From: Acidobacteriota bacterium
GTDB taxonomy: Bacteria; Acidobacteriota; Terriglobia; UBA7540
Length of the DNA stretch: 21,716 nt
NCBI GenBank assembly: GCA_003165615.1
Contig: PLWR01000210.1
Location: 1,478 to 23,193 of the forward strand
Reading direction: 5' to 3'
Part shown: positions 7,556 to 13,621 of the stretch, in pieces
How positions within the stretch are numbered: the stretch's first letter is position 1
Layout of the letters: every line of letters begins with the position of its first letter
Program-made: the position numbers and the translations under genes
The notes under the pieces: model-generated
The model's input: only the letters and a program-made list of their open reading frames with translations
What the model was told of the DNA's origin: nothing
Database searches by the model: none

Positions 7556-10117
7556 GTGAAGAATCACGAAAAGAAAGCAGCTTTGAGCCGGCGGAATTTT
7601 CTGAGCGGCTCGGTGGCGGCGACGGTTGCGTCCATTGCCATGCCGGGAAACATGCCGGCCCGCGCGGCGGAGAAAACCGGGCAGGGAATGGCATCGACAT
7701 CCTCCGATGTTGTTTTCCGCTCCGCCAAGCCCATCTGGCCTAAGGGCCGGGAAAAGGAGATGAATCTCTTTGTGGGCTTCCGCGCGGTATTTCAAGCCCC
7801 CGCCGGCAAGCATGTCTACCTGCGCATGACCGGCTGCACGTTCTATCGTGTTTATCTCAACGGGCAATTTCACGGCTGGGGACCGGGCCGCCCTCCCCTC
7901 AACTTTGCCCGGGTCGACTCCTGGGACATCACTCCGCTTCTTGTTAAGGGTAGGAACATTGTCGCCGTCGAAGTTGCGGGTTACAACGTCAACGCGTATT
8001 ACGTTTTGGACCAGCCGTCGTTCCTGCAGGCGGAGGTGGTGACGGATTCGGAAGTGCTGGCGTCCACCGCCGGCGCCGGACAGCCCTTTGTGGCCAGGCT
8101 CCTTCCCCATCACATCGAGAAAGTGCAGCGCTACACTTTTCAACGCACCTTCTCCGAGGTGTATCACCTGGAGCCGCACTGGAACGCCTGGCGCGAACAT
8201 GCCGAGGTTCCCTTTGGGCCCGTGGCCTGCGCGGTCTATCCCCAACGCAAGTTGATTGCGCGCGGGGTTCCGTTCCCCAACTACGTCAAGCGGCAACCGG
8301 AGATGATCGCGGCGGAAGGCGAGTTTGACTGGAGCGGCAACGCGCCGAAGAGTTTGATGGAGGATCGCTCCATTCCCTCCGCCGCCAGAATCGGGCCGGA
8401 TATGCTGGGATATGCCTGGACGGACCTCGATGAGATTCCCTACCTGGAAGCGCAGAAGACAAAAACCACGGTCAACAACCGCGTCGATCGGCCCTACGTT
8501 CCGGACGAGGCCCTGCGCATCCGTGCCAATCAATTCAAGACCTTCGATTTTGGCACCAACCTGCCCGGATTTTTCGGCGCGCACGTAACGGTGAAGACCC
8601 CTGCCAAAATCTATTTCACCTGGGATGAGACGCTGGCGGACGGCGACGTGGATTTCAAGCGCCTGATGTGCTGCAACGTGCTTGCCTATACGCTGGCTCC
8701 GGGCGAATACCACCTGGAGACCTTTGAGCCCTACGGCCTGGAGTTCCTCAAATTGATGGTTCTCTCCGGCGAGTGCGAAGTCGACCACATTTTCATTCGT
8801 GAATACGCCGCCTCGGACATCTGGACCGCGGACTTCCATTGCAGCGATGCGCGCTTCAATGAGCTGTTTGTGGCGGGCCGGGAGTGTTTTCGCGCCAACG
8901 TCCTCGACACCTATCAGGACAATCCCACGCGCGAGCGCGGCACCTGGATTTGCGACCCGTTGTTTTCCGGGAGCGCGGCGCCGCTCCTAAGCGGGCATGC
9001 CAAAGTTGAGCGCAATATGTTCCAAAACTATATGCTCCCCGACCACTTTGTGGGTATGCCGGACGGCATGATGCCGAATTGCTATCCGGCGGATCATCCC
9101 GGAGGAGACTTTACTCCCCAGTGGCCGCTCTGGCTTGTGGTGCAATTGGAGGACTACCTTGAGCGCAGCGGCGACGGCGAGATGGTGGAGGACATGCGCG
9201 CCCGAGTCATGAAGCTGTTCGATTATTTCCGGCCCTTCCAAAACGAGGATGGCCTTTTGCACGATTTGAAGGGCTGGGCATTTGTCGAGTGGTCGAAATC
9301 GAATCAATTCGTTCAACCGCTAAACTATCCCACGAATATGCTTTATGCTGCGACGCTGGCGGCCGCTGGCCGGATGTACAACCTTCCGCATTTCATCGAG
9401 CAGGCGGAGTCATTGCGAAAATTGATTCGCCAGCAGTCCTATGACGGACAATTTTTTGTCGATAACGCGGTGCTCAAGGATGGAAAATACGTTCCGACGG
9501 ACAACCGCAGCGAAACCTGCCAGTACTACGCATTCTTTTTCGGGGTTGCAACCCCTGAAACCTATCCCGACCTTTTTAAGACGCTGCTCAACGAATTCGG
9601 CCCGCGCCGGCACAAGACCAATGCCTACCCAGATATCCCTCCTTCGAATGCGTTTATGGGGAACGTGATGAGGCAGGACATCCTTTCCCGCGCCGGCCAG
9701 ACCGAGCAGCTCGCGCAGGAGGCCATTGACAACCTGCTCTACATGGCGGACATCAGCGGTACGCTTTGGGAAAACAGCAGCGATGAAGCCAGCATGAACC
9801 ACGCGTTTGAAGCGCACATCGTAACCACGCTCTATCGGGACATCCTTGGCCTTTATAAAGTGGATATGGTGCGCAAAGAAGTGCACCTGCGCTTTACGCC
9901 GCTCGCCATTGATTGGTGCGAGGGCCGCACGCCCACGCCCGATGGGTTTGTCTACCTGCGCTGGGTCAAGACCCCGGACGGGCTGACTTATCAGCTCGAC
10001 GTTCCCGCGGGATATCGTGTTCAGGTGGAGACGCTGGGCAATGTTAATGCGGTCCAAAGGCACTTCCCGCATGGCAAGGTGAATTTCGGCTATAAGGTGG
10101 AGGGAGGGTATCAGTAA
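7556..10117 (+). CDS. Tat-exported alpha-L-rhamnosidase-like protein, GH78 family
   Basis: This is an 853-residue protein with a GTG start at 7556 preceded by AAAGGAG. The leader SRRNFLSGSVAATVASIA is a twin-arginine signal. Residues about 85-165 (FYRVYLNGQFHGWGPGRPP, SWDITPLL) form the sugar-binding N-terminal domain of GH78. The (alpha/alpha)6 barrel follows, with DTYQDNPTRERGTW: D455 and E460 correspond to the conserved Asp and general-acid Glu in the D-x-P-x-R-x-E motif. SGTLWENSSDEASMNHAF contains the conserved WE, with E739 in the place of the general base. A C-terminal beta-sandwich closes the protein. GH78 enzymes release alpha-L-rhamnose from pectin, gums or glycosides by inversion. 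The motif is somewhat divergent, so the exact substrate is open. Its stop codon is followed two bases later by the left border of an insertion cassette, which leaves the gene intact. Confidence 0.82.
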   Translation: MKNHEKKAALSRRNFLSGSVAATVASIAMPGNMPARAAEKTGQGMASTSSDVVFRSAKPIWPKGREKEMNLFVGFRAVFQAPAGKHVYLRMTGCTFYRVYLNGQFHGWGPGRPPLNFARVDSWDITPLLVKGRNIVAVEVAGYNVNAYYVLDQPSFLQAEVVTDSEVLASTAGAGQPFVARLLPHHIEKVQRYTFQRTFSEVYHLEPHWNAWREHAEVPFGPVACAVYPQRKLIARGVPFPNYVKRQPEMIAAEGEFDWSGNAPKSLMEDRSIPSAARIGPDMLGYAWTDLDEIPYLEAQKTKTTVNNRVDRPYVPDEALRIRANQFKTFDFGTNLPGFFGAHVTVKTPAKIYFTWDETLADGDVDFKRLMCCNVLAYTLAPGEYHLETFEPYGLEFLKLMVLSGECEVDHIFIREYAASDIWTADFHCSDARFNELFVAGRECFRANVLDTYQDNPTRERGTWICDPLFSGSAAPLLSGHAKVERNMFQNYMLPDHFVGMPDGMMPNCYPADHPGGDFTPQWPLWLVVQLEDYLERSGDGEMVEDMRARVMKLFDYFRPFQNEDGLLHDLKGWAFVEWSKSNQFVQPLNYPTNMLYAATLAAAGRMYNLPHFIEQAESLRKLIRQQSYDGQFFVDNAVLKDGKYVPTDNRSETCQYYAFFFGVATPETYPDLFKTLLNEFGPRRHKTNAYPDIPPSNAFMGNVMRQDILSRAGQTEQLAQEAIDNLLYMADISGTLWENSSDEASMNHAFEAHIVTTLYRDILGLYKVDMVRKEVHLRFTPLAIDWCEGRTPTPDGFVYLRWVKTPDGLTYQLDVPAGYRVQVETLGNVNAVQRHFPHGKVNFGYKVEGGYQ

Positions 10118-10119
10118 CG

Positions 10120-10154
10120 TGATGAGCGGTAGTGGTGCAGTTTCCGATTTGCCG
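10120..10154 (+). repeat. Left end of insertion cassette: 8-bp direct repeat plus 27-bp inverted repeat
   Basis: TGATGAGC (10120-10127) is the left target-site copy. The terminal inverted repeat runs 10128-10154, beginning GGTAGTGGTGCAGTTTCCG. It matches the complement of 10864-10890 at 25 of 27 positions. Confidence 0.85.
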
Positions 10155-10890
10155 GTCACTCACCCAAAATGGAAAGAAATGGCGCAAGCAGAACCCTGTG
10201 GCGAGCGTATCATCAAATTCAAAGCCGCAACTCCTTAAATGATCTAGGCTCTCTTACATCATGAAAACGATGAGTTATCCAACTCGGCGAACCATAGTGG
10301 TTGTGTTTGCACTTGAGGCTTTGACGGCTGCGAACTGCGTGGGGCAGGACGTGCCGAAGGGCGTGAACTACAAGAAGGCAACCGCTGAAACCAACGCCAA
10401 GGCTAAAATTGCACTCGAACGGGCGCTTTCAGACACCGACGCCCCGGCGAACTTCCTAAGTCAAGTGATCAGTTGTGGGCCGATCCTCTGGAATGACCTC
10501 AAGGCCGATCATGAGTCTCTATCGAAAGACTCGACTCCGGTGACCATGATGTTGTCAGTGCCGGAGCCCGTCCAGGCCGAAGGCCGGGGCTTTCGGACTC
10601 AGGAGCAACGGGATAGATTCTGGAAGCTGGTGCTCGATAAATATCCGGGACTGCGGAAGGGGATTGTTCGGCCAGCACGGGCAAATGAAATTCAGTTCTA
10701 CTGGGCAACAATACCTTTTGACATCGAGGAGCCATTCTTTGCGATTGAGACGCCAACTGACATCTTTGTCGCTAACCTGAGGTTTGAGAAGGACACAGCA
10801 ACATTGTTCTGGCTCGACAGAATGGACGACCTCCGAAAACTTAAGAAGTGACGGGCGGATTGTCGGCAAACCGGAAACTGCTCCACTACC
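10128..10890. mobile_element. 763-bp transposase-less insertion cassette (mobile insertion cassette type)
   Basis: The ends are imperfect inverted repeats of 27 bases (25 identical), at 10128-10154 and 10864-10890, both starting GG at the outer tip. Immediately outside both ends is the same 8-base word TGATGAGC (10120-10127 and 10891-10898), the signature of a target-site duplication. The interior carries one secreted hypothetical gene (10261-10851) and no transposase. It is therefore a non-autonomous element moved in trans, like the mobile insertion cassettes known for some IS families. Eight-base duplications and GG ends occur in several IS families (for example IS1595, ISL3, IS6, IS256), so the helper family is undetermined. 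Two counted 60-base lines inside are 50% GC, against 63-67% in two lines of the flanking genes. Insertion fell between the GH78 stop codon and the terminator at 10939. Confidence 0.85.
10261..10851 (+). CDS. Secreted hypothetical protein carried by the insertion cassette
   Basis: The 196-residue protein belongs to no family I recognise. The N-terminus MKTMSYPTRRTIVVVFALEA has a basic stretch and a hydrophobic core ending near CVGQD, so it is probably exported or lipid-anchored. Mature features include an alanine- and lysine-rich segment (KKATAETNAKAKIALERAL), two cysteines (one in the leader, one in SQVISCGP), an RTQEQRDRFWKLVLDKYPGLRKG helix-like stretch and a hydrophobic FYWATIPFDI strand. 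No ribosome binding site is obvious before either ATG 10261 or ATG 10270. It is the only gene between the cassette's inverted repeats, so it is the passenger. Its lower GC content than the flanking genes supports separate origin. It might be transcribed by read-through from the GH78 gene. Function is unknown. Confidence 0.75.
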   Translation: MKTMSYPTRRTIVVVFALEALTAANCVGQDVPKGVNYKKATAETNAKAKIALERALSDTDAPANFLSQVISCGPILWNDLKADHESLSKDSTPVTMMLSVPEPVQAEGRGFRTQEQRDRFWKLVLDKYPGLRKGIVRPARANEIQFYWATIPFDIEEPFFAIETPTDIFVANLRFEKDTATLFWLDRMDDLRKLKK

Positions 10891-10898
10891 TGATGAGC
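10864..10898 (+). repeat. Right end of insertion cassette: 27-bp inverted repeat plus 8-bp direct repeat
   Basis: The inverted repeat occupies 10864-10890 and ends CTGCTCCACTACC. It starts 12 bases after the stop codon of the passenger gene. TGATGAGC at 10891-10898 repeats the left border exactly. Confidence 0.85.
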
Positions 10899-10938: not shown

Positions 10939-10967
10939 CCCCTCCTAAATCAGGAGGGGAGTTTTTT
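10939..10967 (+). terminator. Rho-independent terminator
   Basis: CCCCTCCT (10939-10946), loop AAATC, perfect complement AGGAGGGG (10952-10959), then AG and six T (10962-10967). It lies downstream of the right cassette border. It was probably the original terminator of the GH78 transcript and now also ends the passenger gene's transcript. Confidence 0.85.
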
Positions 10968-11065: not shown

Positions 11066-13621
11066 ATGAAAACTGAACTCTCGCGGCGTAAATTCCTCGC
11101 TATCTCGGCGGGCGCCAGTGCGCTGACGGTAAATGGCCTGAAGGGTTTTGCCGGCGCCGGAGGGGCTTCTGAGGCTCCCGTGCCCATGGATCCCAAAGAG
11201 CCCGACCGGCTGTTTTCACCGGGCCTCAAAGGCGCGGAGTGGAACACCTTCCACGCGGCGGGTTATAGCAAGCCTGTGTCGGGCATCTGCTATCGCACCA
11301 AGCCTGAGGGCTACTTTGGCCTCTACATCGACAAGCCGCTACCTGTTTCCGGCATGCCGCTGGGAGGGATTGACACCGGTGCGTTGTATCTCGAGCCCTC
11401 GGGCCAATTGGGCTACACCTCCATCTTCAATCACCTCACACCGGTTGGCGGTCCCTTGAATACCCCCTACCTGGGAATCGCCAGCGCCGGCCGAGGGTGG
11501 GTATTTGGCACGGGCCAGACCAAGAATTATGCGGGAAACAACGGGCCGTCATTTGGACTCAGCGTGTGCGGCGGAATGCAGGAAAGCGAGTATTGGGGAC
11601 ACTATCCCATCGCCGACGTCGAATATAAGTCGGACGCGCCGGTGCAGATCGGCGTGCGGAGCTGGTCACCGTTCATTCCTGGCGATTCCAAGGCGTCCAA
11701 TACGCCCGGCGCAGTTTTTGAAGTTCACCTGAGAAATGCGAAAACGACGGGGCAGAAAGGCTGCGTGGTTTTCAGCTTTCCGGGCTTTGCCGAACATCAC
11801 ACCCGTGACTTCTCGATTGGCTGGCCCAATTTGCCCAAGAAGCCGGTGATGCCTCTTCCCCAGATTTCCCGCCTCCCTGCGCCCACTGGTCTCAAAGGCG
11901 TCTGGGTGGAAGACAAGGCGTGGGGAATGAGCTACGTTCTGGCGACGGTGGACGAAGGTCAGGTGCGCAGCGGCGGGGCTCTTGGCGTAGACGGACGGAC
12001 TTGGGATAAGGCAGAAGAGAAACTGCCCTCCACCGCCGAATGCGACGACGGGGGCTCATCCTTGACCGTGGACTATAATATCGGGCCCGGTGAAGAGAAG
12101 GTGATTCGCATCATCCTGGCCTGGTACGCGCCGGAGTGGGAAGGCAATGGCGTTCCGGGAACCGGCGGGGAACGCATCTGGACGTATGCACCGGAGGGAG
12201 AGACGCTGTCCACCACCGGCAAGCGCTTCACCCACATGTACGCCACGCGCTTTGCCAATGCCGGGGAAGTAGCAAGCTACCTGGCCCGCAACCATGAACA
12301 GTTGCTGGAACGCATCATCGCCTGGCAGTCGGAAGTCTATTCCGACCCGACGCTGCCCGCATGGTTGGCGGATTCGCTCATCAACGCCCTCTATTATTTC
12401 GCTCCGTGCAGCATGTGGGCGCAAGCCAAAGATCCCATTGGAAGCTGGTGCCGGCCGGAGGACGGGCTCTTTGCTTTGGAAGAGTCCCCGCGCGCTTGCC
12501 CACACATGAACACGCTCTCGAACGTGGGGATGTCCGGGCCGACCTTCTCATTTTTCTTTCCCGACCTGGCCCTGTCCATGTTGCGCACCATTCGCTCCAC
12601 ACAAAGAGAGAACGGTGATGTTGCCCAGCTTTTGGGGCGCTGGGCCGACCCGGCAAATTACATGTCGTACGACTATCAGGAGGTGATTTCCGGCTTCTGT
12701 TACGTGTCGGCGGCGTACCTGCACTGGAAGATCACCGGGGACGAAGCCTTCATGAAAGAGTTTTATCCATCGGTGAAGAAGGCTCTGCAATACTCCTTCA
12801 CTCAACGGCCAGACCTGGGCCCGTCGCAGATCATCGCCATGCCGCCGTTTCGGGAGCACACTTGGAACGACAGCGAATGGTTTGAGGATCGCTCCATGGT
12901 GGGCTACGTCTCCCACCCGGGCGGGCTGCGCCTGGCGGGGGCGGAAATGCTGAAGGCCTGGGCGCAGGCCATGGGGGATTCGGAAGAGGTTACGTACCTG
13001 GATTCACTGGTGGCCGCCGGCAAGGACGCCATGCAGAAATACTTGTGGAAGGGCGATCATTACCTGATTTACAACGATACGAAAACCGGCAAGACGCTGG
13101 ACGCCATCTTTTCCCCCACGCTCAACGGTCAATACTGGGCGCATTTCACCGGTGTGCCCACCGTCTTCCCCAAGGAAAACGTGGAGAAGATGCTTTCCCT
13201 TCAGCGCGACAAGGTTTGCAAAATCAGCAAACTCGGAATGCCGCCGATTTACGCGAATCCCGACGGCACGATGTGGAACAAGGATAAAACCGGGTACCTC
13301 ACGGGCGCATACCTCTACACCAACCACCAGGTGATGTGGAATGCCCTCACCTTTATCTACGAAGGGCACAAGGATGTCGGGCTGGAGTTGCTGCGCAAGA
13401 ATCTCGAAATCAACTATCTTGTCTGGGGTTATACGTGGGATGGCACCAACTGCTGTAGCGCCGGCGGAGATACCGGCGAAGTAAACTACGGTTGGGACTA
13501 TTGGTTCAACTGGTCCATATGGAACGCGCCGGCAGCGCTGCTGAATAAGGACATCACGGCGTTGTCGCAACCCGGCGGGTTGGTGCACAGAATGCTGGAA
13601 GCGGCAAAAGAGAAGTCGTAG
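11066..13621 (+). CDS. Tat-exported GH116-like (glucosylceramidase/beta-glucosidase family) protein
   Basis: An 851-residue protein whose leader SRRKFLAISAGASALTV is a near-ideal twin-arginine signal. The N-terminal beta-sandwich (about 90-370) opens with SGMPLGGIDTGALYLEPSGQ and SIFNHL, the hallmark of the GBA2_N domain. An (alpha/alpha)6 catalytic domain (about 400-840) follows. In GH116 the nucleophile is a Glu after Leu in an LEG-type motif ahead of a hydrophobic FPELE-like helix; here FALEES (E472) and TFSFFFPDL fill these positions. The acid/base Asp, expected after the PDGT motif in a D-E-V-W context, appears replaced: YTNHQVMW (N753-H754-Q755). Specificity (beta-glucoside, beta-xyloside, other) or even activity is therefore uncertain. 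It is preceded by a terminator and its own strong ribosome binding site, so it likely starts a new transcript. Confidence 0.75.
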   Translation: MKTELSRRKFLAISAGASALTVNGLKGFAGAGGASEAPVPMDPKEPDRLFSPGLKGAEWNTFHAAGYSKPVSGICYRTKPEGYFGLYIDKPLPVSGMPLGGIDTGALYLEPSGQLGYTSIFNHLTPVGGPLNTPYLGIASAGRGWVFGTGQTKNYAGNNGPSFGLSVCGGMQESEYWGHYPIADVEYKSDAPVQIGVRSWSPFIPGDSKASNTPGAVFEVHLRNAKTTGQKGCVVFSFPGFAEHHTRDFSIGWPNLPKKPVMPLPQISRLPAPTGLKGVWVEDKAWGMSYVLATVDEGQVRSGGALGVDGRTWDKAEEKLPSTAECDDGGSSLTVDYNIGPGEEKVIRIILAWYAPEWEGNGVPGTGGERIWTYAPEGETLSTTGKRFTHMYATRFANAGEVASYLARNHEQLLERIIAWQSEVYSDPTLPAWLADSLINALYYFAPCSMWAQAKDPIGSWCRPEDGLFALEESPRACPHMNTLSNVGMSGPTFSFFFPDLALSMLRTIRSTQRENGDVAQLLGRWADPANYMSYDYQEVISGFCYVSAAYLHWKITGDEAFMKEFYPSVKKALQYSFTQRPDLGPSQIIAMPPFREHTWNDSEWFEDRSMVGYVSHPGGLRLAGAEMLKAWAQAMGDSEEVTYLDSLVAAGKDAMQKYLWKGDHYLIYNDTKTGKTLDAIFSPTLNGQYWAHFTGVPTVFPKENVEKMLSLQRDKVCKISKLGMPPIYANPDGTMWNKDKTGYLTGAYLYTNHQVMWNALTFIYEGHKDVGLELLRKNLEINYLVWGYTWDGTNCCSAGGDTGEVNYGWDYWFNWSIWNAPAALLNKDITALSQPGGLVHRMLEAAKEKS

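Follow-up and report, generated by a model that had tools for sequence, protein, structure and literature searches.

The window analysed here, meaning the whole 21,716-nucleotide stretch of DNA from an Acidobacteriota bacterium, carries a forward-strand gene for an alpha-L-rhamnosidase (7556..10117; ORF list and Pfam, PF17389) whose TAA stop codon ends at 10117. A short element bounded by repeats follows: the left copy of an exact 8-bp target duplication, TGATGAGC, begins 2 bp behind the stop codon (10120..10127, forward strand), the left terminal inverted repeat of 27 bp occupies 10128..10154 (forward strand), its 27-bp right counterpart occupies 10864..10890 (reverse strand), and the right copy of the octamer lies at 10891..10898 (forward strand), with one copy abutting the outer side of each arm. 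The octamers were read directly from the sequence, and the arms were recovered by an independent repeat search and by pattern matching; the arms are 93% complementary, agreeing at 25 of 27 positions, which bears out what a sequence-only reading had described for the inverted repeats and for the direct repeat just outside them. Allowing up to three mismatches, a pattern written for both arms fits no third place in the window and gave no matches in 100 shuffles. The element is also lower in GC than its surroundings, as had been claimed (0.526 against 0.587 outside), with only 2 of 420 windows of the same size equally low or lower. No Rfam family matches the window at the gathering threshold.

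Outside the element, a hairpin followed by a T run at 10939..10959 (forward strand) has the right shape for a terminator; the hairpin scan found one such structure against a mean of 1.3 in shuffles, which is not above chance. From this position, as the sequence-only reading proposed, read-through might express the cargo. The next gene downstream encodes a GH116 glycosidase (11066..13621, forward strand; ORF list and Pfam), whose closest acidobacterial homologue bearing a name is 67% identical and comes from a Terriglobia metagenome-assembled genome. A homologue of the rhamnosidase at E ≤ 1e-100 is present in 1 of 397 genomes (48–49% identical), and no empty site of the window insertion was found in this set. 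Among 12 window proteins scanned, of 42 listed ORFs of at least 100 aa, none is a transposase.

The longest ORF between the arms (10261..10851, forward strand; ORF list) encodes a protein of 196 aa, and its stop codon sits 12 bp ahead of the right terminal repeat. Two shorter ORFs, one of 104 aa and one of 85 aa, lie across it on the opposite strand. The protein has no match in Pfam (up to E 10), NCBIfam, PADLOC or PHROGs, and is thus of no recognised family, as had been proposed. It is probably secreted, judging by eye from a signal-like stretch at its N-terminus, and possibly adopts an NTF2-like fold, a cone-shaped alpha+beta structure. There are 103 homologues of the cargo protein, eleven of them (P0002-P0012) at 80% identity or more; one homologue is named Terracidiphilus and is placed by the taxonomy under Occallatibacter, order Terriglobales. 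Taken with the Terriglobia homologue of the GH116 protein and with the class of the genome on which the sampling was centred, this makes the host probably an acidobacterium of class Terriglobia. Paired ends are absent around the distant homologues L001-L006, indicating that the cargo gene family lives outside cassettes too. The cargo family had no match in viral contigs, and neither the cargo nor a 35-nt end had a match in plasmids.

The larger finding is the family that lies behind the window element, and it was approached through searches for its ends within Acidobacteriota. In a genome sample centred on a Candidatus Angelobacter genome of class Terriglobia (G001), the outer 19-mer has matches in 64 of 397 genomes of the order, a count that is no evidence by itself because the backwards control is nearly equal (58 genomes) and the copy-richest genomes, G339 and G370, carry a variant repeat. 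These two hold 27 and 11 matches, respectively, mostly of the form GGTAGTGGnnCAGTTTGCG, and one facing pair in G370 spans just 117 bp (L054, 2242-2358); a miniature repeat related to the cassette ends may therefore exist. Two exact viral copies of the 19-mer lie inside phage-like coding sequence and look like chance, and the 26-mer has none. The 26-mer gives a cleaner signal: in 150 genomes of the family of G383 it lies at 31 places in 20 genomes, against 1 control match, and a phylum-wide set of 199 genomes gave 9 places in 7 genomes, again against 1 control match. Five of these seven belong to the 19 genomes that the order sample had already covered, and two to the other 180.

A 30-bp profile was built from 18 ends (nine pairs), the window's two included, and scores the left and right ends of the window at 44.2 and 43.1; scores of such input ends are circular, whereas the octamer test described below is not. 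None of 262,117 positions in a reversed-sequence control scores above 12. A lack of any other copy of the ends in any genome was part of what would have refuted the sequence-only reading, and such copies exist: 23 further inward-facing pairs, 538–4342 bp in length, were found with the profile in 19 genomes of one Acidobacteriota order, and the median length of all 24 paired elements is 1690 bp. Nineteen of the 24 pairs have scores above 19 at both ends; in the other five (L090, L091, L100, L108 and L348) the second end reaches only 12.3–16.8, and since real sequence also contains isolated sites of 12–15 that have no sensible partner (L223, L227, L310, L343 and L355), a few pairs may be false. 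The two ends of an element have about 19 outer bases in common and usually diverge further in, with an L type reading ...GCCGACnAT and an R type reading ...GCC(C/G)GTGA. The inner part of the window's left end (...GCCGGTC) resembles the R type and that of its right end (...GCCGACA) the L type, and opposite types are seen in 14 of 19 pairs, with 2 ties and 3 exceptions, by a crude score set after the ends had been seen.

In 8 of the 24 pairs, the octamers at exactly the expected offset on the two sides agree at 7/8 or 8/8, whereas shuffling the right flanks among pairs gives a mean of 0.33 and none of 20,000 such permutations reaches 8; the 19 pairs with both ends above 19 show 6 such duplications against 0.31 by permutation. 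GC is lower in the element than in its flanks in 20 of the 24 pairs. A sister cassette, L058 in genome G383, has an 8/8 duplication, GCAAAGTT, and sits within a dispersed repeat, which runs uninterrupted in three other loci of the same genome (L057, L059 and L194) with one GCAAGGTT or GCAAGGTC, these loci thereby representing paralogous empty sites. The L058 cassette has no counterpart in two relatives, G268 and G266 (L312/L313), where the flanks are 83–87% identical and the flanking genes about 87 bp apart; about 790 bp around the cassette also differ in these loci, so this comparison is not base-exact. A good part of the family is decayed or misassembled, as 16 of the 24 pairs fall below 7/8 at the exact offset and many strong ends stand alone. 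There are 54 strong ends, defined by a score above 26 and by 2.5 kb or more of inward sequence. For 29 of them an inverted partner scoring above 12 lies no farther than 4.5 kb away, for 2 a site in direct orientation lies inward over the same distance, and 25 lack a partner. Larger transposons were sought in 19 loci reaching about 4–20 kb inward of an end, 3 of which hold already known pairs, and no convincing distant partner was seen; L227 has one site of 12.4, 13.4 kb inward of an end.

For 16 of the 24 pairs Pfam gives the cargo a name, and the named cargoes are unrelated between elements. They comprise phosphatidylserine decarboxylase (L045), two methyltransferases with DUF2071 (L047), a Ser/Thr kinase with TPR (L048), PCMT (L051), SnoaL (L058 and L348), TPR below the curated cut-off (L079), a kinase (L080), LysR with a response regulator (L083), a winged helix with TPR (L087), GNAT (L090), radical SAM with HD (L092), PadR with DUF2306 (L095), DUF4386 (L096), shikimate kinase (L101) and radical SAM (L108). 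The eight elements without Pfam-named cargo are that of the window and L044, L046, L049, L088, L091, L100 and L237. Three cargoes, those of the window element, L058 and L348, are candidates for an NTF2-like fold, either from their family or from a model. No transposase or recombinase is among the cargo ORFs scanned from the 24 paired elements, a scan that covered part of the small ORFs, and no transposase is among 25 of the 56 matched families for 42 of the 57 listed ORFs inward of 22 single-ended loci together with 10 cargo ORFs. A regulator beside the single end at L097 gave a weak ISL3 helix-turn-helix match, which was set aside as it is below the cut-off and inside a LuxR-type domain.

IS1595, ISL3, IS256 and IS66 are families that make duplications of about 8 bp, and a helper was sought among them using PF12762, PF01610, PF00872 and PF03050 in 33 end-bearing genomes. 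The 142 loci fetched, which are part of the listed matches (70 IS1595, two of them overlapping, 19 ISL3, 23 IS256 and 30 IS66), extend about 1.5–2 kb past the match or as far as the contig allows, and were scanned with the end profile. No convincing end lies beside any of them, the best site scoring 13.3 (L310), and no full IS with cassette ends was found among the fetched loci and scanned ORFs. IS1595-family transposases (L114-L143 and L178-L217) are present in 28 of the 33 genomes, and the IS1595 elements for which both ends were located are often 1.8–2.9 kb, longer than the transposase gene, so that these elements may carry passengers of their own. They resemble the cassettes in that they make 8-bp duplications and many of their ends begin with GG; however, their ends are of the kind GGTAATTATnnACTTGAC and not the GGTAGTGGnnCAGTTTCCG of the cassettes, a resemblance in design and not in sequence. 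Cassette ends are at none of the 70 fetched IS1595 loci from the 33 genomes, so that within this sample the cassettes share their ends with no IS1595 element; the further IS1595 matches listed are mostly partial. In L059 (G383:C10, 1-260), an ORF cut by the contig edge starts 151 bp inward of an end; this start, which we take to be a tyrosine-recombinase-like N-terminus, could belong to an autonomous relative or be mere cargo.

In the accessible text of PMC3913671, a mic element is defined by two inverted repeats with no transposase gene nearby and usually with a target duplication, and MIC231A1 is described there as mobilised in trans by the IS231A transposase; the accessible part of PMC6542083 adds that MICs depend on an active transposase. 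With terminal inverted repeats, a target duplication and no transposase among the proteins scanned inside or nearby, the window element fits this definition. MIC231 of the Bacillus cereus group is alike in that its passenger replaces the transposase gene and its helper acts in trans (PMC3913671, accessible text). It differs in having a known helper, IS231A, in a host phylum other than Acidobacteriota, and in having IS231-type ends starting CAT... with 10–12-bp duplications, according to the available portion of PMC2266710, where the ends here start GGTAGTGG... with 8 bp duplicated. As the same part of PMC3913671 describes them, the qnrD and qnrS2 mic elements also have inverted repeats and no known helper, no fitting transposase having been found for qnrS2; the qnrD element differs in its 2-bp duplication and 24-bp ends, and no lineage-wide family with varied cargo is reported there for either. 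The Tn3-derived TIMEs and their mosaic derivatives are likewise non-autonomous, with common ends, differing inner modules and lengths of 262–3892 bp, but the accessible text of PMC4133298 gives them 38-bp Tn3-type ends, 5- or 6-bp duplications and known Tn3 parent transposons. An integron gene cassette is argued against by the terminal repeats with their duplications. No cassette family in Acidobacteriota or with these ends was found in the open-access literature searched, a scope that excludes subscription papers and ISfinder; in the accessible portion of the Solibacter usitatus paper, transposases, IS elements and repeats are mentioned and such cassettes are not. The suggestion that both element and cargo may be undescribed can be kept in part: the element type, MIC, is already described, whereas the literature searched contains no description of this family, in which the ends are common, the cargo varies and no parent IS was found, and the cargo has 103 homologues and no named family.

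The window element is real, has transposed, and is by structure a mobile insertion cassette. A chance inverted repeat around an ordinary gene would have nothing in its favour beyond the general abundance of short repeats, and is refuted by the empty shuffles and control positions and by a family of paired ends with duplications. A transposase-less cassette mobilised in trans, as the sequence-only reading proposed, is the best fit to the paired ends, the duplication and the 23 further pairs, and it is very likely that 10128-10890 is a MIC moved in trans by a DDE transposase and belongs to a family with varied cargo found mainly in one Terriglobia order. The 763-bp non-autonomous cassette would have inserted into TGATGAGC behind the rhamnosidase gene, thereby duplicating the octamer, and a DDE-type transposase encoded elsewhere would recognise both ends and move any gene between them. 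We infer DDE chemistry from the terminal repeats and from duplications of fixed length and variable sequence; the action in trans, the continuing mobility of the cassettes and the expression of the cargo are likewise presumed. Within the Acidobacteriota sampled, the family would reside mainly in one order of class Terriglobia, its ends conserved and its cargo differing from member to member.

The source of the helper is where further explanations divide. On balance, the cassettes probably are orphan derivatives of one ordinary IS, each formed when the IS gave up its transposase while retaining or capturing an adjacent gene, with a parent that is rare, extinct or outside the sample. MICs are conventionally taken to arise in this way, and the explanation departs from the main reading only in where the helper comes from. 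The precedent of MIC231A1, mobilisable in trans by the IS231A transposase (PMC3913671, accessible text), speaks for such an origin, as do ends lying 30–300 bp from a contig edge, as is seen with repeated elements (L057, L059, L113, L147 and L157), and co-resident IS1595 elements of similar design (many GG starts, 8-bp duplications, about 1.0–2.9 kb), yet no transposase appeared in the scanned ORFs of the 24 pairs and 22 single-ended loci and no copy-rich genome was found. Diverse cargo, a low copy number in each genome, a distribution concentrated in one order of the sampled phylum and the failure to find a parent IS would instead suit a dedicated transposase, host-encoded or of non-IS type, that moves the cassettes as a gene-shuffling machine. 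Its logic would be comparable to that of integron cassettes or RAYT/REPIN pairs. This explanation is considered unlikely, as no candidate enzyme was identified and the contig-cut, tyrosine-recombinase-like start in L059 is perhaps mere cargo and misfits variable 8-bp duplications. Equally doubtful is an order-wide DDE-based system in which asymmetric conserved ends shuttle single genes or small operons within Terriglobia genomes, with the transposase not carried between the ends, as a shared cargo pool that is integron-like without an attachment site or integrase. Pairs of TIME-like miniature elements could also flank and mobilise intervening DNA, as composite transposons do and as TIMEs do with plasmid segments (PMC4133298, accessible text), and the 37-bp back-to-back end pair of G001 would fit this; with a second, direct-orientation site inward of just 2 of the 54 strong ends, and only two ends in the window with no complete two-ended miniature element on each side, such an arrangement is very improbable.

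Returning to the cassette moved in trans, the finding of matching ends with quite different genes inside suggests a gene-shuffling system with an enzyme yet to be found, and which enzyme moves the cassettes is the sharp question. Acidobacteriota are abundant in soil and their genomes are large and varied; to our knowledge, the exchange of single genes among them is poorly known. A family of small cassettes that share their ends and can swap their cargo would open a direct path for such exchange, and the conserved ends make the cassettes countable in any soil metagenome.

Some further arrangements of the ends were observed. In G001, two ends lie back to back in a 37-bp palindrome (L012, 1501-1537), possibly an excision remnant or a minimal element. 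Inside the larger cassette of L058, a weaker nested pair of ends at 1887 and 2853 (scores 11.1 and 16.8) encloses the second ORF and is possibly a cassette within a cassette. A block of 1550 columns containing a Crp-type regulator is 87.7% identical between L343 (981-2519) and L341 (6281-7809), from genomes G214 and G161, with unrelated flanks; one border of the block is an R end of the family, and the other border has no recognised end.
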